Shown: positions 32,140 to 46,741 of the stretch, piece after piece | How positions within the stretch are numbered: the first letter of the stretch is position 1 | How the letters are laid out: each line of letters opens with the position of its first letter | Source: Bacteroidota bacterium | GTDB lineage: Bacteria > Bacteroidota > Ignavibacteria > Ignavibacteriales > Ignavibacteriaceae | Direction of reading: 5' to 3' | Assembly (NCBI GenBank): GCA_021824565.1 | Contig: JAKAKL010000050.1 | Location: 1 to 64,000, forward strand | DNA length: 64,000 nucleotides | Translations under genes and position numbers: made by a program | Notes under the pieces: model-generated | The model's input: only the letters and a program-made list of their open reading frames with translations | Databases searched by the model: none | What the model was told of the DNA's origin: nothing

Positions 32140-32412
32140 ATGAAGAAGAAATTTACAAACCGGGATTTTTATTTCTCGGCTTTCTTAATTGCCAACGGCC
32201 AAAAACTTTTATCTCACACCAGAGAAAGCGGAATAACAACTTTCATGTTTGAAGACAATAAGGAGATAGCAGAGCTATCCTCCCGTTACTACTCTTTGAA
32301 CGCCCTCGTTGAGCCAATGAGCTACGGTAATGCGCTTAAAACACTTAAGAGCATTATTCACAGCACGAATACAAATACAAGGATTTACAATAATGAGCCA
32401 AGTAAAAGATGA
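32140..32412 (+). CDS. DUF5659-like small protein
   Basis: A 90-residue protein matching the DUF5659 pattern: DFYFSAFLIANGQKLLSHTRESGITTFMFED, then a tail with ALKTLKSIIHS. Such proteins are frequent in phages and plasmids; the function is unknown. It overlaps the primase start by 20 bp. Confidence 0.75.
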   Translation: MKKKFTNRDFYFSAFLIANGQKLLSHTRESGITTFMFEDNKEIAELSSRYYSLNALVEPMSYGNALKTLKSIIHSTNTNTRIYNNEPSKR

Positions 32413-34651
32413 TAAAAATTCATCTAGAATAAACGATAAGTATCCTTACTCAAAAACTGTTTCGGTATCTTATGCCGACAAGGCGCACTATAGCCAGATG
32501 AAAGTCACCGATCTTAGCTGGGTATTTGCTAATATAACTTCTGATGTATGGAAGAAGAATATTGAAAAGATTAGACAAGCTGCAGATGCAGAAGAGAAAA
32601 GACGTCTCAAGCAGAGTTCTCTCGGTTACTTTATCATCGGTACCTTCAAAGACAATAAACGTTCAATAGAGAATTTCATAAACACGGAGTTTATGATATT
32701 AGATTTTGACCACGTGAGTGAAAATATTTCTTCATTCAAAGGAAGGCTAATGAAAGAAGAAAATGTATATGCCGCATTTGTCTCTCCGGGCGGTGACGGG
32801 ATGAAAGTAATATATAGATTTGACCATCCGGTAAATGACCCCCGTTTATTCTCTTCCCTTTATAAACATTATTCATCTGTAATGGCGGGGCGTTTAGGTC
32901 AAAAAGCTGATGCCACTCCGGACGCTTCAAGAGCATGTTTCTTTAGTTATGACCCGGGACTATATGTTAATGAAAGTGCCGTGACGTTAGGCGTTAATAT
33001 TGGATTCACAAATATGGACATGCCTGTAATATCCAAAGTTATCCAGCACGACGAGAGTGATAATCTGTGGGATGGAGTCGGTGAAGGTCATAGAACTACA
33101 CGAAGAGGTAAGCTGATTGGTATGTTGCTTAACAAAGAGGTAAAGCAAGACCATGCCACGGAAATCTTACTCATGTATAACGATAGATGCTTGCCGCCGG
33201 AAGACAAAGTAAAAATAAAAGAAGAAGTTGCCTATTACTATAAGCGGTATGGAAGTGATAAAAAAGAAGATGAATTTTGGGAGATAAAATCAAAAGAAGG
33301 AGAAAGATATGCACAAATCAGTTATATAAAGCTTTTCTCTGTAATTGAGCAAGCCGGTTTCGGAAAGATATATAGAAACAATTCTGACTATTTAGTTAGA
33401 GTTGATAAAAACATTATGGATACTGCCGTGATGCCTCAGATAAAAGATTACTTGAGGGGAATTGTTGAAGAAAGAAAATACTCCGTGCAGATTAATAGTA
33501 TGATTCTTGAACAACTTATTTGTCATACCGGAAGAATACTCAGCGATTCATCTGTGGAGTTCATAAAAACTTATGATTCCCTTGTTAAGAAAGATAGTAA
33601 AGATAAAGCCTCTCTATACTATAGGAATTGTTATGTTGAGATCGATAGAAACGGCGGAGTAAGCGTTAAAGATTATACCACACTAGACCGTATAGTTTGG
33701 AAATCTCAGATTCTGCAACGAGATTTTAAACTGCTGGAAGGAGAGCAAAGAAAGTCCGACTTTGAAATATTCTTGCAGAATGTAATGAGAGGAGATAATG
33801 AGAGAATTAAATCAATAAAGTCAGCGATTGGTTACTTGATCCATGACTACAAGAACCCGGCTGAAGGGAAAGCTGTGGTGCTTTGCGATGAGAAAATCTC
33901 AGAGAACCCCAATGGACGTACAGGCAAGAGTATAATCGGTAAGGCTGTTCAGAAGATGCGTAAAAGTGCGAGAGTTGACGGAAAGAACTTCAAGTTCGAC
34001 CGGTTCAGCTTTCAACAGATAGAACTGGATACAAAAGTTATTGACTTCAACGACGTTAATAAGAACTTTGACTTTGAAAAATTGTTTTCCATAGTTACTG
34101 ACGAACTTGTAGTTGAGAAAAAAAACTTACCTTCCTTTAGCCTGTCTTTTGATGAATCTCCGAAGATACTTATCAGCACCAATTACACTCTGAAGGGTGA
34201 AGGTGCAAGTTATCGGGCAAGGATGTATGACCTTGAGTTTTCCGACTACTATAACGAGAGACATAAACCAGTAGATGATTTCGGCAAAATATTCTTTGAT
34301 GAATGGAATGAAGAAGATTGGCTTTTGTTTGACAACTTTATGGTAGAATGTGTATTGTACTTTTTGCAGAACGGATTGGTTGAGGAAGTTAACGTTAATC
34401 TTAATAAAAGAAAGTTCATCGACAACACAAACTCCAGCTTCGTAAGCTTCATTGAAACGCAGAGCGAAATTCTTAATGAAAGAATTTCAAAGAACGACTT
34501 TTATATGAAGTTTATTACTGAGTTCGATGATTTCACCCGCCTTACGAAGAATACATTTACGAAATGGTTAAAGACATATGCTTCGTATGAAGGGCTGTCA
34601 TACCGGGAAGAAAAAAGCAACGGCAAACAGTACTTTATTTTCAGTAAGTGA
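32393..34651 (+). CDS. Primase-helicase of the BT4734/VirE-N and DUF5906 type
   Basis: A 752-residue replication protein. The ATG at 32393 (MSQVKDDKN) is chosen over the longer frame from 32330 because AAGGA precedes it. The N-terminal half resembles BT4734-like primase domains (EFMILDFDHV with the Asp pair, SPGGDGMKVIYRFDHP, DASRACFFSYDP). The C-terminal half has a DUF5906-type ATPase region with a P-loop-like GRTGKSIIGKAVQ, the acidic FNDVNKNFDFEKLF segment and sensor-like ILISTNYTLKGEG. It would start replication of the excised element at the repeat cluster just downstream. Confidence 0.85.
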   Translation: MSQVKDDKNSSRINDKYPYSKTVSVSYADKAHYSQMKVTDLSWVFANITSDVWKKNIEKIRQAADAEEKRRLKQSSLGYFIIGTFKDNKRSIENFINTEFMILDFDHVSENISSFKGRLMKEENVYAAFVSPGGDGMKVIYRFDHPVNDPRLFSSLYKHYSSVMAGRLGQKADATPDASRACFFSYDPGLYVNESAVTLGVNIGFTNMDMPVISKVIQHDESDNLWDGVGEGHRTTRRGKLIGMLLNKEVKQDHATEILLMYNDRCLPPEDKVKIKEEVAYYYKRYGSDKKEDEFWEIKSKEGERYAQISYIKLFSVIEQAGFGKIYRNNSDYLVRVDKNIMDTAVMPQIKDYLRGIVEERKYSVQINSMILEQLICHTGRILSDSSVEFIKTYDSLVKKDSKDKASLYYRNCYVEIDRNGGVSVKDYTTLDRIVWKSQILQRDFKLLEGEQRKSDFEIFLQNVMRGDNERIKSIKSAIGYLIHDYKNPAEGKAVVLCDEKISENPNGRTGKSIIGKAVQKMRKSARVDGKNFKFDRFSFQQIELDTKVIDFNDVNKNFDFEKLFSIVTDELVVEKKNLPSFSLSFDESPKILISTNYTLKGEGASYRARMYDLEFSDYYNERHKPVDDFGKIFFDEWNEEDWLLFDNFMVECVLYFLQNGLVEEVNVNLNKRKFIDNTNSSFVSFIETQSEILNERISKNDFYMKFITEFDDFTRLTKNTFTKWLKTYASYEGLSYREEKSNGKQYFIFSK

Positions 34652-34935
34652 CAAAGTGAAAAAGCAGTGACAAATTATAACCAGGTTTGTCACTGCATTT
34701 CTTTAGAATTTAGCTTAAAAAGAAACAAAAGTGATAAAGTGATAAAGTTTTTACTATTTGGAGAAGAAAATAAAATTTAATATATAAAGTGCGGCAGCCA
34801 ATAATACCCACTATAGTAAGTGCATATAGAAGATATTTATCACTTTGTCACTTTTCTTCTATAATGAATCAAAATCAAAAGAAATCGAGTGAAAACTCCT
34901 TCTAAAATTATCACTTTTACCCCAAACTTTATCAC
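34648..34935. repeat. Iteron-like cluster of GTGAYAAAG repeats, candidate replication origin
   Basis: About nine copies of a 9-mer GTGA(C/T)AAA(G/T) occur in both orientations: plus at 34648, 34667, 34731 and 34739; minus (CTTTGTCAC or TTTATCAC) near 34686, 34836, 34843, 34908 and 34927. Two overlap in direct tandem (34731-34747) and two lie back to back (34836-34851). One pair also forms a perfect 11-bp hairpin (GCAGTGACAAA with TTTGTCACTGC, 34664-34696). The cluster begins at the primase-helicase stop codon, the usual place for an origin. Confidence 0.65.
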
Positions 34936-35038
34936 TGGGGGGGTATTAGGCTAAGCCTCGTGAGCTTCTGGCCGTTGTTAAAATACAGTTATTGTTTTAA
35001 CACAATAAATCAAAAAATACATTTATAAAAGGAAAAAA

Positions 35039-35473
35039 ATGAATCAACAAATCAATATAAAAATATATAAAATTGACGACTTAAGCCGTCTGAAAAATTC
35101 AACTCTTAGTGATGATTATTTAGTTATATGTATGGGAGAAAATTATGGTATCTGGTATCCCTTCAGATTTATGATCTGGGAGGAAGAATCTTACGAATAC
35201 TTTATAGAGAAGCTTGGAATTTATGATCCGGAAGAATTACGTTTCATTATCCAACAGCTTAACAAAGCTGTTCGAGAAAGTTCGTATACAACAATTACAC
35301 TTACCGATATTATTGAAATAAATAATTTAACTATAGCATATTCCGATAACGGTTTAGCCTTTACAAATATGTTCTGCATTAAACCAAATGGATTTTTGTG
35401 GCATAGAAGATTTAGCGAGGCGGACATGAAGTTAGAAAAAGAGTTGAAGCATAGGTATTGTTCGTTGGATTAG
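35039..35473 (+). CDS. Hypothetical element protein
   Basis: A 144-residue acidic protein with an AAAGGAA ribosome site and no domain I recognise (NQQINIKIYKIDDLSRLK ... YLVICMGENYGIWYPFRFMIWEEESY). It is the last plus-strand gene of the element's left half and ends before a terminator. Confidence 0.7.
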   Translation: MNQQINIKIYKIDDLSRLKNSTLSDDYLVICMGENYGIWYPFRFMIWEEESYEYFIEKLGIYDPEELRFIIQQLNKAVRESSYTTITLTDIIEINNLTIAYSDNGLAFTNMFCIKPNGFLWHRRFSEADMKLEKELKHRYCSLD

Positions 35474-35491
35474 AGAGTTGCCGAATAAAGA

Positions 35492-35525
35492 AAGGCTGTC
35501 TTTGTAAGAGGCAGCCTTATTCTAA
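35492..35525 (+). terminator. Terminator after the hypothetical gene at 35039
   Basis: AAGGCTG (35492-35498) pairs with CAGCCTT (35512-35518), extended by an inner CTT/AAG stem, with a T-rich tail. Confidence 0.75.
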
Positions 35526-35707
35526 ATTTTAGTTTAAGTCTTGATATTATTATTATCAAGATAATATCTTAGATACATCATCATACTTAATATTAAAAAT
35601 ACCATCATGAATTATCAATATTTTTTCACAAAAATGCCGAATGGGTAAATGCTTACCTGCATCACTCAATTGTTCGCAAAAATCCAGTCACTTAATAGAC
35701 TAACATT

Positions 35708-37813
35708 TCATTTCAACAGAATAAGTTTCTTTGTCTCAACAAAACTACCGGACTTCATTGTGTACAAATATACACCGCTAGCTAATTTACTTGCGTTAAA
35801 ATTAACTGTATAATTACCCGGACTTTTATTCTCGTTCACTAAAGTCGCAACTTTTCTCCCTAGTATATTATAAACATTGATAGCCACAAAACTGGTTACC
35901 GGTACAGAATATTCTATTGTACAATTCGGATTAAAAGGGTTTGGATAGTTTTGCAAAAGTATATAATTGCTAGGTAAATTATTTTGCTTCTTACTTACAC
36001 TTGAAATAATTTCCGACAACGGACGTCGCCAAACGCCAAGACCTTCAACGCCAGCAAAGATTAATGAATCTGTAACACTAATTGATTCCACTGAAATGTT
36101 AGCAATATTTGGTAGACCCTCATTCATTTCAATCCAATTATTTCCAAAATTATTTGAATAAAATATTCCTCCATCGGCACACGCAAAAAGATAATTGTTA
36201 TGGATTAATAATTTTCTAATAATTCTTGTTGTAGTAAAATTTGAATCGACAGCATATTTTAAACCATTATTTACTGAAACCCAATCAGCACCATAGTCAG
36301 ATGAAAGATATACACCGCTAATTGTACCCGCATATATATCTGTCCCCATTACAGCAAGCGTATTTACCAATAACGGATACTGAGAACCTTCAATTATCGG
36401 TAATCCATTATTTACACTTTTCCAACTCTTACCGGAATCAGAGGATTGAAACACTCCACCTTGAGTACCGGCAAAAAGGTAATTCCCAATTGCTGCAAAA
36501 GATGTTACAGCTAAATATGGATACATTGATTTATTATCAAGAATAGTCCAATTACTATCATTATTAGTATTTATATAAGACCCGCCTCCGTTGGTCCCGG
36601 CAAAAAGATTATTTCCAGAACTAAAAAGAGTTAAGATATTTTTATTCAAAATTCCTTGGTCAGTTTCTATCCAGTTATTTCCTTTATTTGTTGAATGAAA
36701 TATTCCATCTGCTGTTCCAATGTAAAGGCTATTACTGCTTACATTGATATCATAGGTCTCAAAATTACTTAATCCGTTATTTATTTCTTCCCATGTGTTT
36801 CCGTTGTCATTTGAGATGCTGATTCCTCTTCCATTAGTGGCAGCAAATAAAGTATCCTCAGTTTTCCCCAATGAAAAAACTGTAACGCTATTGAAACCAT
36901 TGTTAATTGGACTCCAATTGCTTCCGTTATCCTTTGACACGAATATTCCTCCGTCAGTTCCGGCATAAAGATTTCCTCCCTTAGGTAGTATTGACCATAC
37001 TGTAAGATTAGTCAATCCATTATTCTTAGCTGCCCAATTGGAACCGTTATCTGAGGATAAAAAGATTCCGCCACCTCGAGTACCCACGTAAATATCTGTC
37101 CCTATAATTGTAATAGATCCAATTCCTAAAGTAGTTAACCCATTGCTGATATTTATCCATGTTGCACCGTTATCTTTCGAAAGATATACACCTTCACTTA
37201 CAGTACCCACAATAATATTTGTGTCTTGTACAGCAATTGTCCAGGCATTCAAAAGATTGCTTTTGCAAGCATTCCAATTAGCTCCTTCATCAGTAGAAAA
37301 AAATATGCCTCCAGAGGTCGCCACAAAGATCTTGCTCGGCGTTGAAGTCATATACCAAACTGTTAGGTTAGTCAATCCATTATTAGATTGGATCCAATTC
37401 TTACCATCGTCAGTAGAAATAAAAATGCCTGAGTTATATGTACCGGATAAAATATTCTTTCCATCTAATAACAATGATGATATGGATGTTCCCGTGGGTA
37501 TTCCATTATTTGTAAGTGTCCAAGTGTGCCCATTATCTTTAGAACGGAAAATGCCATCGAAAGTCCCCGCAAATACTGCACTATCGCTTATGACAATGGA
37601 CTGGACATTAGAACTTTTAAGATTAGAATTTTCCCAATTAACTCCATCATTGGTGGAATAGTATAAGCCGGAATAAGCTCCAAGAAATAATATAGAGTCG
37701 TTCGTTGCAAAACTTCTTACACTGCCGCCATAAGGTCCGTTAGTCTGTACCCACTGTGCATAAACTATAATTGTTGGAAATAATAAGAAAAGAAAAAATA
37801 ACCTTTTTAACAT
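35708..37813 (-). CDS. Secreted Asp-box (BNR-type) beta-propeller protein with T9SS sorting domain
   Basis: A 701-residue secreted protein. ATG 37813 is preferred over 37837 because GGAGG lies just ahead and a signal peptide follows (MLKRLFFLFLLFPTIIVYAQ). Thirteen Asp-box-like repeats (SKDNGSNW, SSDNGSNW, STDDGKNW and so on) occur every 40-50 residues, predicting one or two beta-propellers as in sialidases, Vps10 or photosystem assembly factor-like proteins. Sialidase catalytic residues are not evident. The C-terminus is a T9SS sorting domain (QNYPNPFNPNCTIEYSVP ... KKLILLK). It is host-like in style although it lies within the presumed element. Confidence 0.9.
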   Translation of the reverse strand: MLKRLFFLFLLFPTIIVYAQWVQTNGPYGGSVRSFATNDSILFLGAYSGLYYSTNDGVNWENSNLKSSNVQSIVISDSAVFAGTFDGIFRSKDNGHTWTLTNNGIPTGTSISSLLLDGKNILSGTYNSGIFISTDDGKNWIQSNNGLTNLTVWYMTSTPSKIFVATSGGIFFSTDEGANWNACKSNLLNAWTIAVQDTNIIVGTVSEGVYLSKDNGATWINISNGLTTLGIGSITIIGTDIYVGTRGGGIFLSSDNGSNWAAKNNGLTNLTVWSILPKGGNLYAGTDGGIFVSKDNGSNWSPINNGFNSVTVFSLGKTEDTLFAATNGRGISISNDNGNTWEEINNGLSNFETYDINVSSNSLYIGTADGIFHSTNKGNNWIETDQGILNKNILTLFSSGNNLFAGTNGGGSYINTNNDSNWTILDNKSMYPYLAVTSFAAIGNYLFAGTQGGVFQSSDSGKSWKSVNNGLPIIEGSQYPLLVNTLAVMGTDIYAGTISGVYLSSDYGADWVSVNNGLKYAVDSNFTTTRIIRKLLIHNNYLFACADGGIFYSNNFGNNWIEMNEGLPNIANISVESISVTDSLIFAGVEGLGVWRRPLSEIISSVSKKQNNLPSNYILLQNYPNPFNPNCTIEYSVPVTSFVAINVYNILGRKVATLVNENKSPGNYTVNFNASKLASGVYLYTMKSGSFVETKKLILLK

Positions 37814-37970
37814 AGAGCCTCCACTTGTTAAAATCACTAAAGGAAAAAGCCTTCATAATTACTTAGACTAATTTACTTTATTATTTTAATATAGTGCAAG
37901 AAAAAAAATCATTGAAATATCTTTTAATCTATTTATAATCTTATGCATTCTTCACAAAAATATTTTTCTT

Positions 37971-38071
37971 AAAAAACCCATGCAATATAATTTTGCCCTA
38001 TCCCAACTGTAAAAGAGTGCCTACCGGCTCACCAAACAAACTTGATTTTCCAAAGGGGGAATAGCCCTCAA
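37971..38071 (-). repeat. Structured 100-bp repeat, copy A (3' of small membrane protein gene)
   Basis: Positions 37982-38025 match 41121-41164 at 43 of 44 bases. The next about 38 bases differ but can form a stem in both copies (GGCT with AGCC here), after which GCCCTCAA is shared (38064-38071). On the minus strand both copies lie 60-80 bp past the stop of a paralogous small membrane protein gene and end in a T-run, so they may be conserved 3' UTRs or small RNAs. Confidence 0.7.
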
Positions 38072-38143
38072 TAAAATCGAGATCTAGAAAAAGGAATAAA
38101 AAAATTTTCAATTCCATTTTTTAAGGGCTGCTCTTAAACATTC

Positions 38144-38422
38144 TTATGAACTAATTAACAGGATCATTAGTATCCCAACTATTACGCTAATTATCACTAC
38201 AGGAAAAGTACTCCATCCATGTATTATGTGTAAATACCGAAATGCCATTGCTGCTGCTCCCAAAGCCGTTAGATGCACACGATGTATCCAAATCGAAAAA
38301 GCGTAGAATAATAAGCTCAATAAAAAGCAAGAAAGTACTATTACAACAAAATTAGAGTATGTCAATAAATTGAGAACTGATAACGTTACAAAAATTAAAA
38401 AACTAATTACTTTTCGTGCCAT
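38144..38422 (-). CDS. Small membrane protein, paralogue of the protein at 41282
   Basis: A 92-residue protein with about three hydrophobic helices. The frame extends to 38488, but ATG 38422 has an AGGAG site nine bases ahead. It shares the motif FRYLHIIHGWS with YRYFHIVLHWN of the 41282 protein, in the same position before the last helix. Both are followed by the same structured repeat. Function is unknown. Confidence 0.7.
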   Translation of the reverse strand: MARKVISFLIFVTLSVLNLLTYSNFVVIVLSCFLLSLLFYAFSIWIHRVHLTALGAAAMAFRYLHIIHGWSTFPVVIISVIVGILMILLISS

Positions 38423-38445
38423 GTAGATAAAACTCCTATAAAATC

Positions 38446-38655
38446 TCAATTGATTATACTTTGTATTATCGATAAGTGTGTTAACCAATTCTTTATGAAA
38501 GCCTCCATTTTTTCAAATGCCTCATCAATGTTACCCGAGGGTAATGAGAATCTTATCTTGTTAAAGATTCCGTCATCACTTCTTAATAAAAGAATCGAAA
38601 TTTCATTCAGGTATTCATTATTTTATAATAACTTTTTGTATCTAAAAATTGCCAT
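38446..38655 (-). pseudogene. Small gene interrupted by an in-frame TAA
   Basis: Starting at ATG 38655, the frame reads MAIFRYKKLL, then TAA, then continues in the same frame for 58 codons (NNEYLNEISILLLRSDDGIFNKIRF ... KNWLTH). The start follows the previous frame's stop as TAAATG, typical of operon genes, so this looks like a real gene with one nonsense change. Confidence 0.55.
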
Positions 38656-38978
38656 TTAAAACCTTAGCTCACTTTCATTCTCAAAAGCAAAAGGATCTTT
38701 AAGGACAAGCTTTACATCTTTATAAATTTTTTCATTTTCCATTTCAGAAATTGCACTTATACATTCTTCAAATTCAATTTGACACTACCGGCAGTCAAGA
38801 TTTTCAGGAACTTCCTTTCCTTCATTATATACTGTTATTGTAAAGTAACCGTATACTTCACTTGCATATCTGAGCTGACAAAGTCATTCTCATCTTTTTT
38901 CCAATCAAAATAATATTCGCCAATTCTTTCAGGAATATTTTCTTCACTTCTTAATAGTTCTTTAAAGTCCTTAGTCAT
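38656..38978 (-). pseudogene. Small gene with a frameshift and an in-frame TAG
   Basis: From ATG 38978 (ribosome site GGGAG) the frame reads MTKDFKELLRSEENIPERIGEYYFDWKKDENDF, then needs a frameshift to continue as RYASEVYGYFTITVYNEGKEVPENLDC, meets a TAG, and goes on as CQIEFEECISAISEMENEKIYKDVKL to a TAA at 38656. Protein-like composition on both sides supports a decayed gene of about 105 codons. I recognise no family. Confidence 0.6.
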
Positions 38979-39013
38979 TATTTTCTCCCTATTAGTAATT
39001 TCAATATTTCATT

Positions 39014-39445
39014 TCATAAAATTTTTTTTAACGACATAATCACCTCTTCTTTAATATAAATTTTATCATCTTCGACTTTAAGGACTATTTTTGTAAATTC
39101 ATTTACGAAGTTCTTAAATGCTATATACATCCATTCCTTTGAAATTTTTACATCTTCAAATAGAAAAAATACTTCACTATTTGTCGATAATAAATTATTT
39201 AATGCAATGTCGATTTTAATATCGGATGTTTCTCCCTTTAATAATACTGATAACATTAAGTGTTTATCCTTAGTTATTTTGAAGCTGGCTTCTTCTATCA
39301 TTTCTTTTACTTTTTTTACATTTATTATTAATTTATTTTTTCCCTTTGGTATCAATATTTTCATAGGCGGCCATAAAAAGTCGAATAGACTTGAGAATTT
39401 TCTCCCGGCGATATTTATCAAATTTCTTTTTATTGAATTAAACAT
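39014..39445 (-). CDS. Hypothetical protein
   Basis: A 143-residue basic protein without recognisable domain (LINIAGRKFSSLFDFLWPPMKILIPKGKNKL ... KEEVIMSLKKIL); it looks like an alpha/beta fold with one amphipathic N-terminal region. It lies downstream of the two-helix membrane protein and EcsC-family genes on the same strand and may form a group with them. Confidence 0.6.
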   Translation of the reverse strand: MFNSIKRNLINIAGRKFSSLFDFLWPPMKILIPKGKNKLIINVKKVKEMIEEASFKITKDKHLMLSVLLKGETSDIKIDIALNNLLSTNSEVFFLFEDVKISKEWMYIAFKNFVNEFTKIVLKVEDDKIYIKEEVIMSLKKIL

Positions 39446-39500
39446 AATACTCTTTAATTTTTTTTAGTAAACAATTACTCTATCATAACCCTTGGACAAT

Positions 39501-39911
39501 CTATTTTCGTGATCGTGGTTCAAGTATCCATTCGTACTTACCTGTTTCCTTGTTAAAGGTCATTATTGATTTGTATTTAGCCCTTGTTATCAAGATTGTT
39601 ATAATTACACCACCACCTGCTAATGTCATAATAGTTCCACCAATAACTAGAGTACCTAGTTTTGTAGTGGGCTCTGGATCCAGAAAAGCTAATACTAATG
39701 CCCCTGCTCCAATCAACATCATAGTACCTCCACCTGCTGCACCTATCCATTTATCTGCAGAATATCTGTCATAACCAAGCGGGTTAAATTTTTTATCATC
39801 GGTTGAAATAATAAAAGTTTCTTTATTCTTCATAGCTTTCGCAATTTCGTTTAAAGAAGTTTTATCTTTATACTCAATTTTTTTTGTTCCATCAAAATTC
39901 TGATCGGTCAT
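39501..39911 (-). CDS. Two-helix membrane protein
   Basis: A 136-residue protein with a soluble N-terminus (about 55 residues) and two glycine-rich membrane helices (WIGAAGGGTMMLIGAGALVLAFL and LVIGGTIMTLAGGGVIITILI), then a short basic tail. No family is recognised. It sits between the EcsC-family gene and a hypothetical gene in one direction. Confidence 0.7.
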   Translation of the reverse strand: MTDQNFDGTKKIEYKDKTSLNEIAKAMKNKETFIISTDDKKFNPLGYDRYSADKWIGAAGGGTMMLIGAGALVLAFLDPEPTTKLGTLVIGGTIMTLAGGGVIITILITRAKYKSIMTFNKETGKYEWILEPRSRK

Positions 39912-39969
39912 TTTTACACTCCTAATTAATGTTGATAAAAATATTGTTATTTAGTTTATGAACTTTATT

Positions 39970-40752
39970 TTATTTAATATTATCATAAGTTAATTTCACT
40001 TCTTCTAAACCATATTTTCTTTCAAGACGTCTTATGGTAAAATGGCCGAGTGCCATATCTTGAAAATGATCTATAAATAAAGTGTTAATTAGTGCTCCTC
40101 CAGCTGCTCCAATTAATGGCAGTGCTTCCGCTGCTAATTTTTCAGACACTTGGACACTAAAACGTTCTGCTATTTGTATTATTAGTCGAACAAGCGGAGG
40201 GGCTCCTTCTTCAACCAATCCCTTTTCAGCAATATATTCAGCTGCTTTTGTTACTGTCCTTGCAAGTGCAGTGCGAATGGCAAAATATTTAGATTTAGAA
40301 GCATCATCACTATTGCTCTCACCACCTAAAGCAAAAACTTCAATGGCGGCCATTTTAGATTCAACGCTTCTTATATCTTCCCCTTCACTTCTTGCAATAT
40401 CTAAAATAGATCTCAACATAATTGTTGTTGAAATTGGAAGTTCTACTGCTAAGGCAGGTAACCCGAAAAATCCACCTATGAATCCCGTTGTTGCAACTGA
40501 AATAGTATGCCACAAATTTATTGATTTTTTACCAGGCATTTCATTCATTGAAAATACTGCGACATCTGCAGCTTTAATCAATGATGTTTGAGTTATTATA
40601 CTAACTTCCTTTTTCCAATTGTTAGGCAATAAATCAAATCCTTTTCCAATTGGCTTCCCAAACACTTCTGTAATCTTAGCTGCAATACCAGGGTTTTCCA
40701 AAAGCTGTTTTGCGTCTCTTAAAGCATTCATATCATCTGGATGAAAAATCAT
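39970..40752 (-). CDS. EcsC-family protein
   Basis: A 260-residue protein of the EcsC family: helical N-terminus, then the characteristic HTISVATTGFIGGFFGLPALAVELPISTTIMLRSILDIARSEGEDI segment and a C-terminal hydrophobic GAAGGALINTLFIDHFQDMALGHFTIRRLER. EcsC proteins are membrane-associated with unclear function, found beside ABC transporters or alone. The gene has an AAGGAA site and starts 56 bp after a terminator-like hairpin that ends a structured leader RNA. Confidence 0.88.
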   Translation of the reverse strand: MIFHPDDMNALRDAKQLLENPGIAAKITEVFGKPIGKGFDLLPNNWKKEVSIITQTSLIKAADVAVFSMNEMPGKKSINLWHTISVATTGFIGGFFGLPALAVELPISTTIMLRSILDIARSEGEDIRSVESKMAAIEVFALGGESNSDDASKSKYFAIRTALARTVTKAAEYIAEKGLVEEGAPPLVRLIIQIAERFSVQVSEKLAAEALPLIGAAGGALINTLFIDHFQDMALGHFTIRRLERKYGLEEVKLTYDNIK

Positions 40753-40807
40753 AATAATTGTTCCTTATGTATCTAACAAAATATTTATTTCAAGAGTTAG
40801 TTTTAAA

Positions 40808-40970
40808 TAAAAAAGGACGCAACCCAACTTTACGTCCGATATCGAGGTACTGGTATACCTTTGACAAGACTATAAAATAGGCTGCGTCCCATGGGGGACG
40901 CAATCCTACCGCTCGTTTTGTCATGTGAAAATTACCAGTTTTCGATATCAAACGATGCGTAAAGACCACG
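40808..40970 (-). ncRNA. Highly structured leader RNA with terminator, candidate attenuator or riboswitch
   Basis: Read on the minus strand, five nested helices form one long arm: CTTTACG/CGTAAAG (40958-40964 with 40828-40834), GATATCGA/TCGATATC (40942-40949 with 40838-40845), CTGGTA/TACCAG (40933-40938 with 40850-40855), TTGTCA/TGACAA (40918-40923 with 40862-40867) and GCGTCCC/GGGACGC (40895-40901 with 40884-40890). The strand then makes GGACG (40837-40833) and CGTCC (40819-40815) plus six T (40814-40809), a rho-independent terminator. Bases 40828-40837 take part in both the outer helix and the terminator, so the two folds compete. The EcsC-family start codon is 56 bases further on. It matches no RNA family I can name. 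Confidence 0.65.
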
Positions 40971-41109
40971 CAATATTATTTAATAATATATATTTTTTTA
41001 GTTAAACAATTTTCCTTTTTTATTCTGGATAATATTAGAAAAGAATATAGTAATTTGCAAGGAACAGCTTAATTATTCTTGGCGAATCTTTTTTGTTTTT
41101 GATAATTAA

Positions 41110-41212
41110 AAAAAACCCCTGCAATATAATTTTGCCCTATTCCAACTGTAAAAGAGTGCCTACCTATTCATCAAATGAACTTAAGTTTTCATCTGATGGG
41201 GTAAGCCCTCAA
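41110..41212 (-). repeat. Structured 100-bp repeat, copy B (3' of small membrane protein gene)
   Basis: The partner of copy A at 37971-38071: 41121-41164 match with one change, the middle differs but forms its own stem (CATCA with TGATG), and GCCCTCAA is shared (41205-41212). It lies about 70 bp past the stop of the 41282 gene, as copy A does for the 38144 gene. Confidence 0.7.
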
Positions 41213-41281
41213 GTTATTTCAAATACTAAAAACCGTTTCCTAAATTTTTTCGTCCCCAATTTCTCAGTTCCCATATTATTA

Positions 41282-41593
41282 TTATAATCTCTTAATAGCA
41301 TTTTTATCCAAGATCATAAATAATAAAAAATATACTCCAATGCCTATCAAAATTGCTAAGCAGATATTCCAGTGTAAGACGATGTGAAAATATCTATAAC
41401 TGCTAAACCCGGCTAGCGGCAATATTACCCTTTGGGAATCTATTAACACTAAAATTTTTATTAGAAATAAGATTACGATAAAACTAATTGAAAATTCTAA
41501 AATTAAATTCAAAAAACTGACCCGCGTATAAAAATTAAGTTGTAACAAAACAGTTAACAACAGGCTACTGATTATGTATCCGCACAGCCTCAT
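41282..41593 (-). CDS. Small membrane protein, paralogue of the protein at 38144
   Basis: A 103-residue protein with about three membrane helices. ATG 41593 with AAGGAG six bases ahead is preferred over 41617. It shares the R-Y-F/L-H-I-V/I-x-H-W-N region with the 38144 protein. Gene plus downstream repeat form a duplicated unit flanking the EcsC group. Function is unknown. Confidence 0.7.
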   Translation of the reverse strand: MRLCGYIISSLLLTVLLQLNFYTRVSFLNLILEFSISFIVILFLIKILVLIDSQRVILPLAGFSSYRYFHIVLHWNICLAILIGIGVYFLLFMILDKNAIKRL

Positions 41594-41630
41594 AAATACT
41601 CCTTTTTCTCTAAACACAACTTTATAATAT

Positions 41631-41650
41631 AAGGGAGCTTTCGCTCCCTT
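41631..41650 (-). terminator. Terminator after the lipoprotein gene at 41664
   Basis: AAGGGAGC (41631-41638) pairs perfectly with GCTCCCTT (41643-41650) around a 4-base loop, 13 bases past the lipoprotein stop on the minus strand. Confidence 0.75.
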
Positions 41651-41663
41651 CTAGTATATTACT

Positions 41664-42113
41664 CTACTTATTTTCTATCGGATTAAGTTTGATCTTATAG
41701 TATAATTCAGTTTCGTCCGGAAAATTATCTTCACCCCAAACTAGATTCTTTACATCAACTGACTCAGGCAAATCATACATTTCCCAGAGCGGGGATGACT
41801 CCTCAAGCGGCTGTAAGTCTGAAGATGCTCCGTCTATTGGTTTATATAATCTTCCTTCTTTATCTGAAACTGCATAAACAGGGCCAAAGAAATAGATTTC
41901 TTTTTTACCGTTGTTTATAATTTGCCAATTTACCAAAAGCCTTATTCTGCCGGAGACTTTTTGATATGAGGAATTTATGACCATAACTTTTACATCATAT
42001 TTACCGGAGGAATAATTATACTCACACCACTTGCCTTCTGTGCCTACTTTGCTAGCGCAGCCGAAATAAAATATTGAGAAAATAATATATGGTAGTAATA
42101 ATAGTTTCTTCAT
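41664..42113 (-). CDS. Putative lipoprotein, DUF4352-like beta domain
   Basis: A 149-residue protein with a signal peptide and lipobox YFGC (Cys19). The mature part is beta-rich (YDVKVMVINSSYQKVSGRIRLLVNWQIINNGKKEIYF ... YKPIDGASSDLQPLEESS), resembling Ig-like DUF4352-type domains seen in mobile-element lipoproteins. The domain call is tentative. It is followed by a terminator. Confidence 0.7.
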   Translation of the reverse strand: MKKLLLLPYIIFSIFYFGCASKVGTEGKWCEYNYSSGKYDVKVMVINSSYQKVSGRIRLLVNWQIINNGKKEIYFFGPVYAVSDKEGRLYKPIDGASSDLQPLEESSPLWEMYDLPESVDVKNLVWGEDNFPDETELYYKIKLNPIENK

Positions 42114-42228
42114 TGTGATTCCTTAGTTTTAATTATATGATTAATTTTTAGGGCTGCGTGGCAGCAAGCTGATGTAATTAGCATCTAGTCCGCATTTAAT
42201 CAGGCTCCTGCCCGAACCCTTATTTATT

Positions 42229-42429
42229 TTAATTTGATCGTAACCCCAGTAGCTCCCGAACTCTCTGTTCATCAAACTTAGTTTCTGGATAAGTAAATTC
42301 AATAATCGGATCTTCACCGATATTCTTGCTGTCCATATCTACAACTACAATTTTCTGATTAGCTTTTGAAGAGTAAACTTCTGTTATCATACCTTTTAAT
42401 ATTACAAGCACTACTAATTCATTATCCAT
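42229..42429 (-). CDS. Small hypothetical protein
   Basis: A 66-residue protein (MDNELVVLVILKGMITEVYSSKANQK ... RVRELLGLRSN) that starts 7 bp after the DUF932 gene stop with GGAG close to the ATG. No domain is recognised. Operon position supports it as real. Confidence 0.6.
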   Translation of the reverse strand: MDNELVVLVILKGMITEVYSSKANQKIVVVDMDSKNIGEDPIIEFTYPETKFDEQRVRELLGLRSN

Positions 42430-42435
42430 AACTCC

Positions 42436-43191
42436 TCAAAGTTTAAATATCTGACTCACTCTCATTTCATAATAAGCCCTTTGTCTCTGATTTATGAGAT
42501 GGCTTATATAAAACGTAAGCATGTTATAAAGTACCCACTGATTCTGTGGTGGAATTTGTCCTTCAATATATTTTGACAGAGTTTTTCCCATTCTATTTTT
42601 TATTTCCTCTCTTATCTCTTCTGTTACATTAAGATTCTGAAGTACGTTAATGCGTTCTTTAATTACTGGAACCTGATCATAAGTTTTTTCAATCTGTCCT
42701 TTGATATTACCGAGATCAATTCCGCTAGTGTGTTTAGAATAAAACTGTGCAAGCACCTGTCCAAATACCATCCCATTGCCGCAAAGAAATCTTATCGCGC
42801 CCCAAAAGATTCTTACACCCTCAGAACCATCGTATGAGTTATGAAGAAAGAGTGAGAGTGCAATTTCACTTTTTCCGTCGCTAAGCGTAAGATCGGGAAA
42901 AGTAATTTGGAGCCTCATTCGTTTTGAATCTACAAATGAATGCGAATTATCAAAGTGCCATCTGGTATCAAGCTGATGAAGCTGCTCAAGCAGCGGCATT
43001 ATTACATCGCGGTTAGGAATGAGTTTGTAACTATCCTGCATTATCGAGATAAGTTTATTTTTATCACTCCTAACTATGGCTTTGTATTCTTTAGCTGCTC
43101 TGGGATTTTCTTCGAGGTTCTCGAAGTATACTTTTCTTTCCTCAACTGGGAACAAAAATTTGTTCATTCTTCTTTCTATTTGGTGATTCAT
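42436..43191 (-). CDS. DUF932 (phage/plasmid-like) protein
   Basis: A 251-residue protein of the DUF932 family, with DTRWHFDNSHSFVDSKRMRLQITFPDL, ALSLFLHNSYDGSEGVRIFWGAIRFLCGNGMVFG and a helical C-terminus. The family is frequent on phages and plasmids beside recombination genes; its molecular role is not established. AAGGAG precedes the start. It lies in a minus-strand operon running from the amidoligase to 42229. Confidence 0.88.
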   Translation of the reverse strand: MNHQIERRMNKFLFPVEERKVYFENLEENPRAAKEYKAIVRSDKNKLISIMQDSYKLIPNRDVIMPLLEQLHQLDTRWHFDNSHSFVDSKRMRLQITFPDLTLSDGKSEIALSLFLHNSYDGSEGVRIFWGAIRFLCGNGMVFGQVLAQFYSKHTSGIDLGNIKGQIEKTYDQVPVIKERINVLQNLNVTEEIREEIKNRMGKTLSKYIEGQIPPQNQWVLYNMLTFYISHLINQRQRAYYEMRVSQIFKL

Positions 43192-43207
43192 AAAAATTCA
43201 ACTCCTT

Positions 43208-43675
43208 TCAGTTATATCCGTTGCCGTTTATCTTACTGCGGGCAATAAATAAAGTAATAGCTATTCGGTTGACATCGACCATACCGTTCAGCTTCTCTTG
43301 TATCTTCATTGCGTCCTCGTAACTGTGAAGCATTGATTGAAAGTAAGTATCCTTACCATTGATAAGTGTTTCTTTCTTATCTAATACTTCTGCTTTCACA
43401 GGCAATAGTTTCACGTCATATTTAGTAATTACCTTTGTCCCCTTTTGCTCAGCAAGCTTGACGATCTCAAATCGATCTCCTTTGTGAAGATCCTTTATTT
43501 TTTCATGTACATCCTCTGGTGCAAAGAATGATAGCTCTTCGTTTGTTCCGTTCTTAACATTATACAAAAAGTAATCGCCGTAGGTTGAAGTACCCTTTAT
43601 GCATTCATCATACAGCAGTTCTAATACTGTCAGCTTGTTCAGCTCTAACTCCAGTTTCTTCTTCTTCTCTGGCAT
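43208..43675 (-). CDS. Hypothetical protein, possible OB-fold ssDNA-binding protein
   Basis: A 155-residue protein with a charged N-terminus and a beta-rich middle (YGDYFLYNVKNGTNEELSFFAPEDVHEKIKDLHKGDRFEIVKLAEQKGTKVITKYDV) that looks like an OB-fold, then a helical tail. It overlaps the Gam-like gene by 68 bp and precedes DUF932. An ssDNA-binding role fits these neighbours but is inference. Confidence 0.6.
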   Translation of the reverse strand: MPEKKKKLELELNKLTVLELLYDECIKGTSTYGDYFLYNVKNGTNEELSFFAPEDVHEKIKDLHKGDRFEIVKLAEQKGTKVITKYDVKLLPVKAEVLDKKETLINGKDTYFQSMLHSYEDAMKIQEKLNGMVDVNRIAITLFIARSKINGNGYN

Positions 43676-44174
43676 CGTTTCCGTCCTTTCTAATTTTATA
43701 AGTAAATTCTTCTTTGCCTAGTATTACCGTTATTCCTTTAGGCACTGGTCTCGTTTTTATGTAAGCCTTAATCTTGTTAAGGTCTGGCTTAACAGTCTCT
43801 GGAATAACAGTAACAAGTTCTGGTTTTGCATTCTGAAGGAATAATTCAAGATCACTTACCTCGACCTTATCTGGTCTCTTATGCATTTTAAGAATGCCGT
43901 TCGGGAGGTCTATTGTCTTTTCTCCTCGCTCAAGAATAAATGCTCTGAGTTTAAGTTCTAAGAATTTTATTTTCTCGTTAATCTGAGCATTCTTAGTAAG
44001 CGCCCAGTTGTTAATTAAGCTGCATTCCTTCTCAGCTTCACAAAAATTATTCTCTATCTGAAATGAAAGAGTTTTAATTTGCATAAGGACCAAATCATAA
44101 TAAGCCTCCGTTTGCTCTTCCTCTTTTTCTTCCGCCTCATTTATAAGTTCGTCAAGAAAATTCTCATCACTCAT
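43608..44174 (-). CDS. Mu Gam-like host-nuclease inhibitor
   Basis: A 188-residue Gam-family protein, which binds DNA ends and shields linear DNA from host exonucleases. The family pattern is clear: helical N-terminal part, KTIDLPNGILKMHKRPDKVEVSDLELFL, then PDLNKIKAYIKTRPVPKGITVI. An acidic/basic tail of about 25 residues follows. The start lies 4 bp after the stop of a 29-residue frame. Confidence 0.9.
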   Translation of the reverse strand: MSDENFLDELINEAEEKEEEQTEAYYDLVLMQIKTLSFQIENNFCEAEKECSLINNWALTKNAQINEKIKFLELKLRAFILERGEKTIDLPNGILKMHKRPDKVEVSDLELFLQNAKPELVTVIPETVKPDLNKIKAYIKTRPVPKGITVILGKEEFTYKIRKDGNDAREEEETGVRAEQADSIRTAV

Positions 44175-44177
44175 CGT

Positions 44178-44267
44178 CTATCCTTTCTTCTTCTTTTTGC
44201 TGCTTTCGCTAAGCAGAGCCGTAACAAAAGCAGCTAATGTTTCAAGGGCTACTATCCACCAGTTCAT
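44178..44267 (-). CDS. 29-residue membrane peptide
   Basis: ATG 44267 has GGAGGAAGG about seven bases ahead. The product MNWWIVALETLAAFVTALL then a Ser/Lys tail (ESSKKKKKG) is one hydrophobic helix with a basic end. It sits between two coupled genes (TAATG with the upstream frame; 4 bp to Gam). Translation is likely; the role is unknown. Confidence 0.55.
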   Translation of the reverse strand: MNWWIVALETLAAFVTALLSESSKKKKKG

Positions 44268-44380
44268 TATTTACCTTCCTCCTTTTTCTTCTCATCTCCC
44301 AGGATTTCCTTCTTCAGCACTTTTAAAATTGCGTTCGTTATTTTGATCGCCAGCTTCACTAAATCTATGCTTTGTTTCAT
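44267..44380 (-). CDS. 37-residue amphipathic peptide
   Basis: ATG 44380 has AAAGGAG seven bases ahead. The product is one amphipathic helix with a charged tail (MKQSIDLVKLAIKITNAILKV ... EKKKEEGK). It ends as TAATG on the start of the next microgene. It overlaps the 3' part of the CopG-like gene in another frame by 89 bp, so one of the two may be longer or shorter than drawn. Confidence 0.5.
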   Translation of the reverse strand: MKQSIDLVKLAIKITNAILKVLKKEILGDEKKKEEGK

Positions 44381-44516
44381 CACTGCTCCTTTTATCTAAA
44401 TATTCTTCTACTGCTTCGTTAACTAATTTTGTCATTGGAGTCTTGTTAGGATGTGAATGCTTATATATGTAAAGCCTTCTTACTAAATTCGGATTTATCT
44501 TAGGGCTATATGACAT
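44292..44516 (-). CDS. Small protein, possibly ribbon-helix-helix type
   Basis: A 74-residue frame from ATG 44516 (GAGGAGG ahead; preferred over 44534). Residues 1-43 (YSPKINPNLVRRLYIYKHSHPNKTPMTKLVNEAVEEYLDKR) fit a CopG/ribbon-helix-helix pattern; the tail is polar and low in complexity. It overlaps the amidotransferase stop by 11 bp. Confidence 0.6.
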   Translation of the reverse strand: MSYSPKINPNLVRRLYIYKHSHPNKTPMTKLVNEAVEEYLDKRSSDETKHRFSEAGDQNNERNFKSAEEGNPGR

Positions 44517-45399
44517 TATATAAATCCTCCTCATCTATCTCGACTCCGCAGACCTCACACCTGTTGGATTGTTTTTCACAATCGTATTTCGTTTGAGAGA
44601 AACACCAGGGACATTCAACTTTATCCCGCTCCGATTCATAGTTATAAAATCGTCTGTCGTACCAATTTCCTCTCGGAACGTATCTCTGATATGCTTCAAC
44701 TCCATCTTTATTTATTATCAGTGAATGGTTATTATTCATTTCATAAAAATGATAATTACTTTCTCCGATATTAAAGCCCATCTTTGTCATGCCTTTAATC
44801 CCTAAAGCCTCCTGCATAATGTACCTTTCGCTACAGAAATAAAATATCTCACTTTCCGAATCGAAATAAAGATCTATTGGGTTATCTTTCTTAATCAGAA
44901 TAAGTTTATCTCTTTCAGAGCTGTTTAATATGGCAACCGCAAAAGAGCCTTCTATTTTATCAAAGAGTCTTTTTATTTTATCTCCTTTATATTTAAGCGA
45001 CAGAAGCTGCAAGATCGCTTCCGAATCAACTTCTCCATCCCTTTGCTTTTTGCCGATTATTTCCTCATCGTTATGAATGATCCCGTTATGAACTATTGCG
45101 ATTCCCAGTTTGTTAAACAAAGGGTGGTTGTTCATATTGTTTTTCTCTGATCCTTGTGTTTTCATCCTACAATGCATGATCATTGACTTGGGAAGCAGAA
45201 GCTTTTTCCATTCCTCTGTCTTTATCATCTCAGACGCCTTTATCGGTGCTTTATGAATATTAAGGTTTCCGTCTTCGTTTATATAAGCAAAACCAGAAGC
45301 ATCACGGCCTCTGGTTTCAAGTAAACTAAACATTTTTGAAAGTTTGTTTTTATCGGGCAGCTCTTTCCCGAATGAGTAATAGCCCATTATTCCGCACAT
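44506..45399 (-). CDS. Class II glutamine amidotransferase with C-terminal zinc ribbon
   Basis: A 297-residue Ntn-type glutaminase domain. Cys2 (MCGIMGYYSF) is the expected nucleophile after Met removal. Family motifs are TRGRDASGFAYI, MHCRMKTQGS, IVHNGIIHND, VDSEAILQLL and GSFAVAIL. The C-terminal about 35 residues carry CPWC and CEVCG, a zinc ribbon. There is no sugar-isomerase or synthetase domain, so it supplies ammonia to a partner. The amidoligase encoded two genes upstream is the obvious candidate. AGGAG precedes the start. Confidence 0.9.
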   Translation of the reverse strand: MCGIMGYYSFGKELPDKNKLSKMFSLLETRGRDASGFAYINEDGNLNIHKAPIKASEMIKTEEWKKLLLPKSMIMHCRMKTQGSEKNNMNNHPLFNKLGIAIVHNGIIHNDEEIIGKKQRDGEVDSEAILQLLSLKYKGDKIKRLFDKIEGSFAVAILNSSERDKLILIKKDNPIDLYFDSESEIFYFCSERYIMQEALGIKGMTKMGFNIGESNYHFYEMNNNHSLIINKDGVEAYQRYVPRGNWYDRRFYNYESERDKVECPWCFSQTKYDCEKQSNRCEVCGVEIDEEDLYNVI

Positions 45400-45435
45400 T
45401 GTTATTCTCCTACGATTTAATTATTTGTTTGTTTA

Positions 45436-46032
45436 TTAGGCTGGAACGAGTTCTTTAACTTTGGTGATTTGTTTTATGAGTTCGATTATTTCGTGCCTGT
45501 TGTTCTCCCTTAATGAAAGACTAACACCTAATCTGCTGCTGCCTATACCTTCTACAATTATTACGCCTGATAGATTAAGCAAAGCATATTCTCGAACTTC
45601 CTCTATTATATTACTGCTCGCTGAAATTTGATATTCATCTCTATCCCTTAGCCCAAATAAATAAATAGAGCTTTCAACCAAACCGACTTTCTCTCTTATC
45701 AACTTAAGATGAAGATCCTTATCATTTATATTTATGAATCTTCTGTAGTCAGTCTTGCCTTCAAGCCACGTTCTTGATAGATGAATAATGTAAGTTCGGT
45801 CGCTTTCTGTTACCTCTGGATTTTCTGGAGCGTTGTCATCATAAGTCTCTGACCAGCATTCCTCGCAGTATGGATCTCCGTCCTGGTAATGAGTCGATGA
45901 ACTTGTAATTAGTTCATCGCAATGGCAGCAGTGATTAAAGAGATCATCAAAGCAGCTTTCGCAGTACGGTTCATCCCATGCATAGCGAACCTCATCGTCC
46001 AATAATAAATTTTCACAGCTTGAACATCTCAT
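45436..46032 (-). CDS. LIM-like double zinc-finger protein
   Basis: A 198-residue protein. The first about 60 residues hold two LIM-like treble-clef fingers (CSSC ... YCESC, then CCHC ... YCEEC, with nearby His and Asp ligands). The remainder is an alpha/beta domain with no known match (IIHLSRTWLEGKTDYRRF ... KEVRELVPA-like end). It lies 1 bp after the amidoligase stop with GGAGGG ahead and just before the amidotransferase, so the three genes form a cassette. It may bind the substrate peptide or tether the two enzymes. Confidence 0.75.
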   Translation of the reverse strand: MRCSSCENLLLDDEVRYAWDEPYCESCFDDLFNHCCHCDELITSSSTHYQDGDPYCEECWSETYDDNAPENPEVTESDRTYIIHLSRTWLEGKTDYRRFININDKDLHLKLIREKVGLVESSIYLFGLRDRDEYQISASSNIIEEVREYALLNLSGVIIVEGIGSSRLGVSLSLRENNRHEIIELIKQITKVKELVPA

Positions 46033-46033
46033 A

Positions 46034-46741
46034 TTATGCTGCCCTCCTATTTAATCCCCAATTTGGAAGAATATCTTCATTCCAATTAAGCTTCTTCGAA
46101 AGAAGCAGATCAAGTTCTTTAAGCCCTTCTTTTGAATCATCCGGAATTGTGTGCAGATTTTGTTTAAGCTGTTTAAGAAACGTTAAACTATGCTGTCTGT
46201 TTTTAAGCTGAACAAAATCCAGTTGATCTTCAATGACACCAAGAACAGTAAGCTTCGCTAGTGTTAGTGTAACAAGAGTAACACTAGGAGAAAGCAAGAA
46301 TGAGCCTGGCGTCCGATATTCAAAGCCGTAGCTTTTCTTTCTGTAAGCGCCTTTCTTCCCATAACCGGAGTGTTCACGCTTTAGTCTTTGTTCTTTATTG
46401 TCAATGCAGTTTGATAAGCTCCCAAGCACTACATCAAGGGCACTGATAATTTCTTCTCCTGGTTCTACCGATATATGAATATGCCCGCCTATCGGGTACT
46501 CGACATAATGACCTGCGTAGAATTCGAGCTCAGGCGCTTTGTCGTGCCCATAGTCTAGTATCTGGTAAATTTTATGTGTGAGGTCTACTGGCGATTCTGA
46601 ATAGCCAGGGCGAATTTCAGCAGTACAAGCGCAGCCGTCAAGACCCATTGAACTATTTGAGGCAAAGTAATTTTCGGCAGAAACAAATCTGCCGTTTAGC
46701 TTACAAATAAGCTCCGGATCGCAGCCTATTGTGAATGACAT
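46034..46741 (-). CDS. COOH-NH2 ligase (amidoligase, phage phiEco32 type)
   Basis: A 235-residue protein with the glutamine-synthetase-like amidoligase motifs: GCDPEL (6-11), TAEIRP (40-45), GGHIHI (85-90) and GFEYRTPGS (139-147). These match the phage phiEco32-like COOH-NH2 ligase type 2, predicted to join an amine to a carboxylate with ATP. Family studies report association with class II amidotransferases, as here. TAGGAG lies ahead of the ATG, and it is the first gene of the minus-strand operon. The substrate (cell-wall peptide, protein tail or small metabolite) is unknown. Confidence 0.85.
   Translation of the reverse strand: MSFTIGCDPELICKLNGRFVSAENYFASNSSMGLDGCACTAEIRPGYSESPVDLTHKIYQILDYGHDKAPELEFYAGHYVEYPIGGHIHISVEPGEEIISALDVVLGSLSNCIDNKEQRLKREHSGYGKKGAYRKKSYGFEYRTPGSFLLSPSVTLVTLTLAKLTVLGVIEDQLDFVQLKNRQHSLTFLKQLKQNLHTIPDDSKEGLKELDLLLSKKLNWNEDILPNWGLNRRAA

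Follow-up and report, generated by a model that had tools for sequence, protein, structure and literature searches.

A candidate two-state transcription attenuator in 5' leaders, widespread in Bacteroidota and found ahead of an EcsC-family gene

The window, a stretch of 64,000 nucleotides from a member of the Ignavibacteriaceae (Bacteroidota), carries on its minus strand a 166-nt RNA (40809-40974; model positions 1-166) which ends at its 3' side in a U-run and belongs to a genuine RNA family, for which Rfam and the literature searches gave no earlier description. We argue that this RNA is a cis-acting two-state transcription attenuator situated in a 5' leader that has a promoter of its own, and from the comparison and folding of sequences we give this reading a probability of roughly 0.7. 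Two features expected of such an attenuator were observed: mutually exclusive helices, one of them a terminator, were indicated by comparison and folding, and a promoter upstream together with a downstream gene devoid of its own promoter was indicated by a sequence motif in 75 divergent copies. The pairing kept among relatives indicates that state 1 is one long rod, in which the helices P1-P4 join the 5' half to the 3' half, and that in state 2 each half is folded on itself, the 3' half becoming a long terminator before the U-run. Compensatory changes argue that both of these folds are under selection.

The RNA of the window, its EcsC gene and a probable mobile element around it

A preliminary description of this DNA, made from the sequence alone, had proposed nested helices on the minus strand, and these are indeed present, as the minus strand of 40800-40975 folds at -65.8 kcal/mol against a mean of -39.07 (sd 3.81) for shuffled sequences (z -7.02; 0 of 200 shuffles as good). 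The window copy matched the covariance model of the family with 137.3 bits. The rho-independent terminator of that description, GGACGTAA/TTGCGTCC followed by T6, was also confirmed as a local hairpin at 40809-40837, with 56 nt between the U-run and the EcsC start codon (ATG at 40752). Read on the minus strand, the RNA begins with segment 1, the 5' hairpin h1 (40956-40973), an arm of which would pair in state 2 with the region of segment 2. It is followed by the 5' strand (40949-40955) of a helix of GUUC:GAAC type, which belongs to state 2 and is a pseudoknot relative to state 1; the 3' strand (40913-40918) was assigned by partner-shuffle tests and by the fold of the 5' half. In the window this helix consists of UCGUUU with AAACGA, which was paired when the 5' half of the window copy was folded alone; a simple score chose another, G-U-rich helix. 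Helix P1 of state 1 joins 40942-40949 to 40838-40845, as judged from compensatory changes, and P3 joins 40918-40923 to 40862-40867, as judged from compensatory changes and the window fold. Tip hairpin A, GAAAA[CUGGUAA]UUUUC (40927-40943), and tip hairpin B, GGUA[UACCAG]UACC (40846-40859), in which the pair 133-142 covaries, have loops (bracketed) that pair with each other, and this pairing is P2 of state 1. Segment 2, or a1 (40895-40906), is the 5' arm of the apical helix P4 according to the partner-shuffle test of a1:a2, and segment 3, or a2 (40877-40890), is the shared segment, which would have a1 as its partner in state 1 or t2 in state 2. The short local terminator has t1 (40828-40837) as its 5' arm, which would pair in state 2 with the flank of a2, and segment 4, or t2, forms with the U-run (40809-40825) the 3' arm of the terminator, as supported by partner-shuffle tests and folding. 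Three folds of the window copy were computed to lie within about 5 kcal/mol of each other, namely the rod with the short terminator (-65.8), the rod with t2 free (-62.4) and the two-hairpin fold (-60.7).

The EcsC-family gene behind this RNA (39970-40752, minus strand; Pfam PF12787, 3.8e-25) would be controlled by the leader, and on account of their spacing two small genes on the same strand (39014-39911), which are without a Pfam match, probably form an operon with it. The preliminary description had tied the RNA to EcsC and had proposed a search upstream of other EcsC genes. By BLASTN the RNA was found in none of the 80 EcsC loci of other genomes, where the only two matches, 15 and 18 nt long, were put down to chance, and EcsC relatives were not found in the viral contigs. 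Since the genes downstream of other copies are also varied (see below), we rejected an EcsC-specific regulatory RNA, and with it the special link to this gene. The only other association with EcsC was seen at a truncated copy (L108, genome G024), whose EcsC relative is 46% identical; in this copy the truncation runs from TGCGTCC in a1 to its repeat in t2, so that the switch is removed and the U-run and the EcsC relative remain.

The window copy probably lies inside an integrated mobile element (28687-46741) beside a tRNA-Thr gene (28687-28760). The gene order runs from tRNA-Thr through a tyrosine integrase, HTH proteins and a BT4734-like primase to Mu Gam-like, GATase and phage-type COOH-NH2 ligase genes; a far attachment repeat or other end of the element was looked for around tRNA-Thr and not found. 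At three other loci (L114, L196 and L197) the RNA begins 88-116 nt after the end of a homologue of the element's DUF932 gene (52-60% identical) and is followed by different genes; the RNA therefore seems to stand where the core of the element gives way to its cargo. Within the window an 82-nt repeat (87% identical; 37971-38052 and 41110-41191) lies just downstream of two small membrane-protein genes (38144-38488 and 41282-41617), which look like paralogues. An imperfect inverted repeat was also noticed by eye on the minus strand at 42151-42220, in the gap that separates the DUF932 gene from a small lipoprotein-like gene, and is possibly another structured leader or a cassette end.

Two incompatible folds among relatives

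Relatives were gathered in three sets. Set A1 holds 22 full-length copies from 10 genomes, leaving out the BLASTN places L003 (truncated), L011, L012 and L013 (short); A2 holds 68 matches, of which 62 are sense and six are antisense matches of this near-palindrome; and A3 holds 66 sense copies with E up to 1e-8, for which part of the places from the phylum scan with model R1 was used, leaving out L143, L153, L189, other low scorers of the R1 scan of the family and antisense matches. In A1 the 40 pairs of state 1 were paired in 90.8% of the cells, and the compensatory changes that the preliminary description had wished to see in homologues were observed, both-sided change occurring in 22 of the 40 pairs against 16.0 (sd 1.6) after shuffling (0 of 500). 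The covariation score of this fold was 0.425 against 0.196 for shuffled alignments, and it was at most 0.107 when the pairing was slid by 1-3 columns. As A3 was fitted to the state-1 model, its counts for state 1 lean that way; the pairs of state 2 were absent from the fitting model, except the loop-loop pairing, which is the same as P2 of state 1.

The partner-shuffle tests of A3, which leave kinship in, gave for the GUUC:GAAC-type helix an own score of 15.4 against 12.4 (sd 0.38) with shuffled partners, the best of 300 shuffles reaching 13.5. Its matching sequences are diverse, for example GUCCC:GGGAC, AUCUCG:CGAGAU and CCGUUCUU:GAGAACGG. The values were -20.5 against -15.0 for a1:a2, -18.6 against -13.4 (sd 0.43) for a2:t2, -15.6 against -12.0 for h1 with the a1 region and -9.4 against -7.0 for the a2 flank with t1, each with 0 of 200 shuffles as good. 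The strands of P2 are the loops of two small hairpins, GAAAA[CUGGYAA]UUUUC (A) and GGYA[URCCAG]URCC (B); each of the five pairs of hairpin A was formed in 50-65 of the 66 copies, the third pair of hairpin B (133-142) was UA in 32, CG in 29 and UG in 2, and the six pairs between the loops were kept in 62-65. When folded alone, the 3' half gave a mean z of -5.8 with z below -2 in all 66 copies and ended at the U-run (in the window copy it has 27 bp outside the tip hairpin), and the 5' half gave a weaker hairpin with a mean z of -2.6 and z below -2 in 44 of the 66.

Similar behaviour was noticed in 54 further copies from 53 sources (10 viral loci, three named genomes and 40 picked places of the R2 phylum scan outside A3), which were never used to build the broader model R2; this model holds state 1 and t1:t2 only. 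With the reservation that several copies from genome G285 are near-identical and make the effective number smaller, and that they and the kinship of the copies inflate the tests to some extent, the values were -18.2 against -13.3 shuffled for a2:t2, -7.3 against -4.3 for the GUUC:GAAC type, -12.2 against -8.3 for h1 with the a1 region and -8.7 against -5.9 for the a2 flank with t1 (0 of 300 shuffles in each case). The short local hairpin t1:t2, at -6.4 against -6.0 (16 of 300), is not general, and in 8 of 21 divergent copies it was weaker than -4 kcal/mol while a2:t2 stood at -17 or lower. The pair 133-142 of hairpin B was less regular here (n=51: UA 26, CG 10, GC 3, UG 2 and unpaired 10, standard in 41 of 51).

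Thus two competing folds in a leader, of which one is a terminator, as the preliminary description had proposed, are upheld by covariation and folding in relatives; its switching pair is not supported. This pair, CTTTACG at 40958-40964 with CGTAAAG inside 40828-40837, exists in the window copy but is not kept in relatives: for h1:t1 the observed value was reached by 179 of 200 partner shuffles in the 66 copies, and in the 54 further copies the own value was -5.3 against -6.1 shuffled (299 of 300). The comparison places the conserved shared segment at 40877-40890 and not at 40828-40837. Helix and loop sequences mostly differ among paralogues of one genome while the pairing within each copy is kept, which is as expected for cis action.

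Promoter motif, downstream genes and distribution

The surroundings were counted for 117 copies (63 earlier places and the 54 further ones) with ORFs of at least 60 aa, contig ends excluding five copies downstream and three upstream. An ATG ORF on the same strand began within 60 nt past the end of the match in 47 of 112 copies, and within 40 nt in 28, and no such ORF of 60 aa was found within 600 nt in 8 of the 112. On the divergent upstream side an ORF started within 60 nt in 1 of 114 copies. The motif TAnnTTTG, which we take to be the sigma-ABfr -7 box of Bacteroidota promoters, was present upstream in 58 of 75 divergent copies (7.4 in shuffled sequence), and downstream in 1 of these within 60 nt (shuffled 2.8) and in 3 within 110 nt (shuffled 4.8). 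In the branch of the window itself 15 of 45 copies have the upstream motif, as against 4.3 in shuffled sequence, which is weaker than in the divergent copies, and the promoter is therefore less clear in this branch; a simple sigma-70 scan gave no site at the right place.

The 104 downstream genes fell into 56 clusters, the largest of which, going by names read from the sequences, are of T9SS/secreted type (16), SusC/TonB-like (14) and single-domain response regulators (7). The start codons of the SusC/TonB-like genes lie 208-579 nt from the RNA in the 14 copies. At four loci (L123, L187, L199 and L207) an imperfect palindrome was noticed by eye between the RNA and the gene, which presumably resembles attC; an integron integrase passed the cut-off in both of the genomes scanned for it, those of L123 and L187, and some upstream neighbours at these four loci look like toxin-antitoxin genes.

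Among 80 genomes of the same family as the window, BLASTN gave matches in 13, in three of them short ones only, and R1, a covariance model derived from the full-length copies of A1, found the RNA in 17 (E up to 0.01), with nine matches in genome G009. Across 395 sampled Bacteroidota genomes R1 (E up to 0.001) detected it in 49 and R2 (E up to 1e-4) in 65, the latter covering 37 of 171 genera with at most seven copies per genome. The genome of the window has a second copy (G000:C11:6830-6992) ahead of a response-regulator gene. Among 50 named EcsC-carrying genomes R2 found the RNA in 3 of the 18 belonging to the Bacteroidota group (Chlorobiota and Ignavibacteria included), namely Joostella, a Chryseobacterium MAG and a Bacteroidales MAG, and in none of the 32 others, the grouping being read from record titles. 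It was also present in 10 viral contigs and in plasmid records of Parabacteroides distasonis, Phocaeicola massiliensis, Bacteroides ovatus and Rhizosphaericola mali; R2 confirmed four plasmid records, and a second P. massiliensis record rests on BLASTN only. In the INPHARED phage records BLASTN found nothing with either of two different queries. In the P. distasonis and B. ovatus records the RNA lies between a primase/helicase gene, followed in B. ovatus by an HTH gene, and a gene annotated as 'dihydrofolate reductase family protein', near RteC-domain genes.

Three prophage-like contigs (L228, L232 and L235) have the RNA near integrase-like or HTH repressor-like genes, by names read from the sequence, and in L228 and L235 a short Cys-rich ORF begins 45-48 nt past the U-run and overlaps an opposite-strand HTH gene. 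In the viral contig L230 a partial second 3' half (hairpin B, t2 and U-run) was seen by eye about 200-310 nt past the full copy.

The family is widespread in Bacteroidota, a dominant phylum in gut and soil, for which to our knowledge few classes of cis-regulatory RNA have been described. It occurs in chromosomes as well as in viral contigs and plasmid records, and the genes that it precedes encode surface proteins, regulators and cargo whose function is unknown. We suggest tentatively, holding it rather less probable than its opposite, that the RNA is a phylum-wide, horizontally carried module of promoter and two-state switch, by which one general cell signal gates unrelated cargo of mobile elements, phages and host; it would then be a large riboswitch or attenuator class in which nearly every conserved base is paired in one of two folds. 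If there is one such signal, its identification would reveal a joint switching of many unrelated and mobile genes, and the RNA would offer a compact natural two-state molecule for folding studies.

Proposed mechanism, rival explanations and known RNA classes

We propose that four interchangeable segments, 1 (h1), 2 (a1), 3 (a2) and 4 (t2), would govern the switch. In state 1 the halves would zip into the rod P1-P4, which contains 2:3. In state 2 the 5' half would form 1:2 together with tip hairpin A and the GUUC:GAAC-type helix, and the 3' half would form 3:4 with tip hairpin B, which makes the long terminator before the U-run. The complementary loops of hairpins A and B probably start the interconversion by a kissing contact, from which the rod would follow. 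State 2 would stop transcription and state 1 would allow it, and a diffusible signal, either a small molecule or an RNA-binding protein, may shift the balance. Over 120 copies the computed energies averaged -62.6 for state 1 and -53.5 for state 2, state 1 being favoured by 9.0 kcal/mol (sd 7.9), and state 2 was the lower-energy fold in 15 copies. Because state 1 is lower in the other 105, we lean slightly towards state 1 as the default read-through fold, with a signal that would stabilise the 5' hairpin and thereby turn expression OFF. Since the rod is usually the computed ground state, state 2 would need kinetics or a factor which holds the 5' hairpin. Counting against an attenuator, formation of the terminator in competition with the rod would involve a long loop. 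The weaker promoter motif in the branch of the window, the distance of the SusC/TonB-like genes, the copies that lack an ORF behind them, the weaker 5' half and the less regular hairpin B of the further copies count against it as well. The short hairpin t1:t2 of the window copy may act as a second stop within state 1.

A classical metabolite riboswitch, in which one fold forms a ligand pocket and the other an expression platform, would be a special case of this attenuator, and the leader position, the terminator, the two folds with several helices and the loop-loop contact would all suit it. However, those unpaired bases which are best conserved in state 1 (AA, CC, UU and GG) are explained by the tip hairpins of state 2, which leaves little for a pocket, a conserved unpaired core marking such a pocket was not evident in the comparison of 120 copies, and the 56 clusters of downstream genes have no evident common pathway; we consider this special case doubtful. 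The preliminary description had named a stand-alone small RNA as the alternative. A trans-acting molecule of some 165 nt, which carries a promoter and a terminator of its own and has the next gene as a mere neighbour, would agree with the promoter motif and strong terminator, with the several copies per genome, with the distance of the SusC-type genes and with the multicopy small RNAs of other kinds which Bacteroides has (FopS, as described in passages of PMC11697453). But the clustering of start codons after the U-run with the promoter motif nearly absent in between, the paralogues that differ in sequence and keep their pairing, which suits cis action, and the preservation of two incompatible folds all disfavour it, and we hold it to be improbable, allowing that terminated transcripts would exist as such.

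A merely strong, constitutive terminator or insulator would agree with the terminator-like 3' half seen in all 66 copies, but it leaves unexplained both P1-P3, which join the halves in state 1, and the gene start right behind without a promoter motif, and is very unlikely. Leader-peptide attenuation of the trp type, in which ribosome stalling would choose between 1:2 with 3:4 and 2:3, has the same segment logic and is less likely still; an ORF that opens with ATG, has six or more codons and enters the RNA was present in 16 of 120 copies as against 63.7 in base-shuffled sequence, and on this ground we rejected it. An equally slight chance is given to an element acting as DNA, be it a recombination site, a nested palindrome or a cassette end. 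The palindromic nature with weak antisense matches of the model, the presence on mobile DNA and the integron integrases of some relatives, which passed the cut-off in 5 of the 10 genomes scanned for them, would speak for it. On the other hand, the helix cells of the 66 copies hold 130 G-U against 26 A-C, a five-fold excess on one strand, and therefore selection acts on the RNA of that strand; the genome of the window has no integron integrase over the cut-off, and the promoter motif and the gene are positioned as for a leader. An integron attC or other DNA recombination site was rejected on the G-U excess and the lack of such an integrase in this genome.

With respect to known classes, the remark of the preliminary description that it knew of no RNA class with this layout agrees with the Rfam searches. 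Over the window no family reached its gathering score except a tRNA; between 40750 and 41250 there were only two chance-level matches (E up to 5), whose 17.7 and 14.3 bits fell far short of the respective gathering scores (50 and 70); and among relatives (20 loci, and 13 divergent loci) only a neighbouring rteR reached the gathering score. Membership of the RNA in any family of Rfam 15 was rejected accordingly, since neither the window copy nor the relatives searched came close to a gathering score. A description of the family was not found in the literature covered, namely titles, abstract openings and passages of PMC11697453, PMC9723704, PMC2864571 and PMC7366714; a published set of thousands of microbiome candidates (PMC8040213) may contain the RNA. 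According to the passages seen of PMC11697453, the FopS/GibS RNAs of Bacteroides are multicopy, have a sigma-ABfr promoter and a terminator, and have a sequence reported in a phage too, and in these respects they resemble our RNA as multicopy Bacteroidota RNAs with promoter and terminator. FopS is described there as a trans-acting RNA with a single-stranded 5' stretch and a terminator hairpin, unlike the present RNA, which is structured throughout and would have two folds in a leader; by this description and in the absence of an Rfam match we did not assign it to the FopS family. The Flavo-1 motif (RF01705) is likewise a widespread structured RNA of Bacteroidota, going by passages of PMC9723704 and PMC2864571, and gave no Rfam match in the window or in the 13 divergent loci (E up to 2). 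The rteR RNA of CTnDOT (RF04181) neighbours two copies (L178 and L179); it is a gene in its own right from a different family, and its match lies in another part of these loci. Transcriptional riboswitches with terminator platforms have a structured 5' leader, mutually exclusive helices, a U-run and a gene just behind. The leader, the exclusive helices, the U-run and the adjoining gene recur in the present RNA, which differs from them in having no recognised class, no common pathway and no evident unpaired ligand core. In the attenuator of the trp operon, segments 1:2 and 3:4 alternate with 2:3, and the RNA described here would share this four-segment logic with 3:4 as the terminator; unlike the trp attenuator it has neither a leader peptide nor a single downstream pathway, and is instead distinguished by its long-range rod and by the loop-loop pairing between its two halves.
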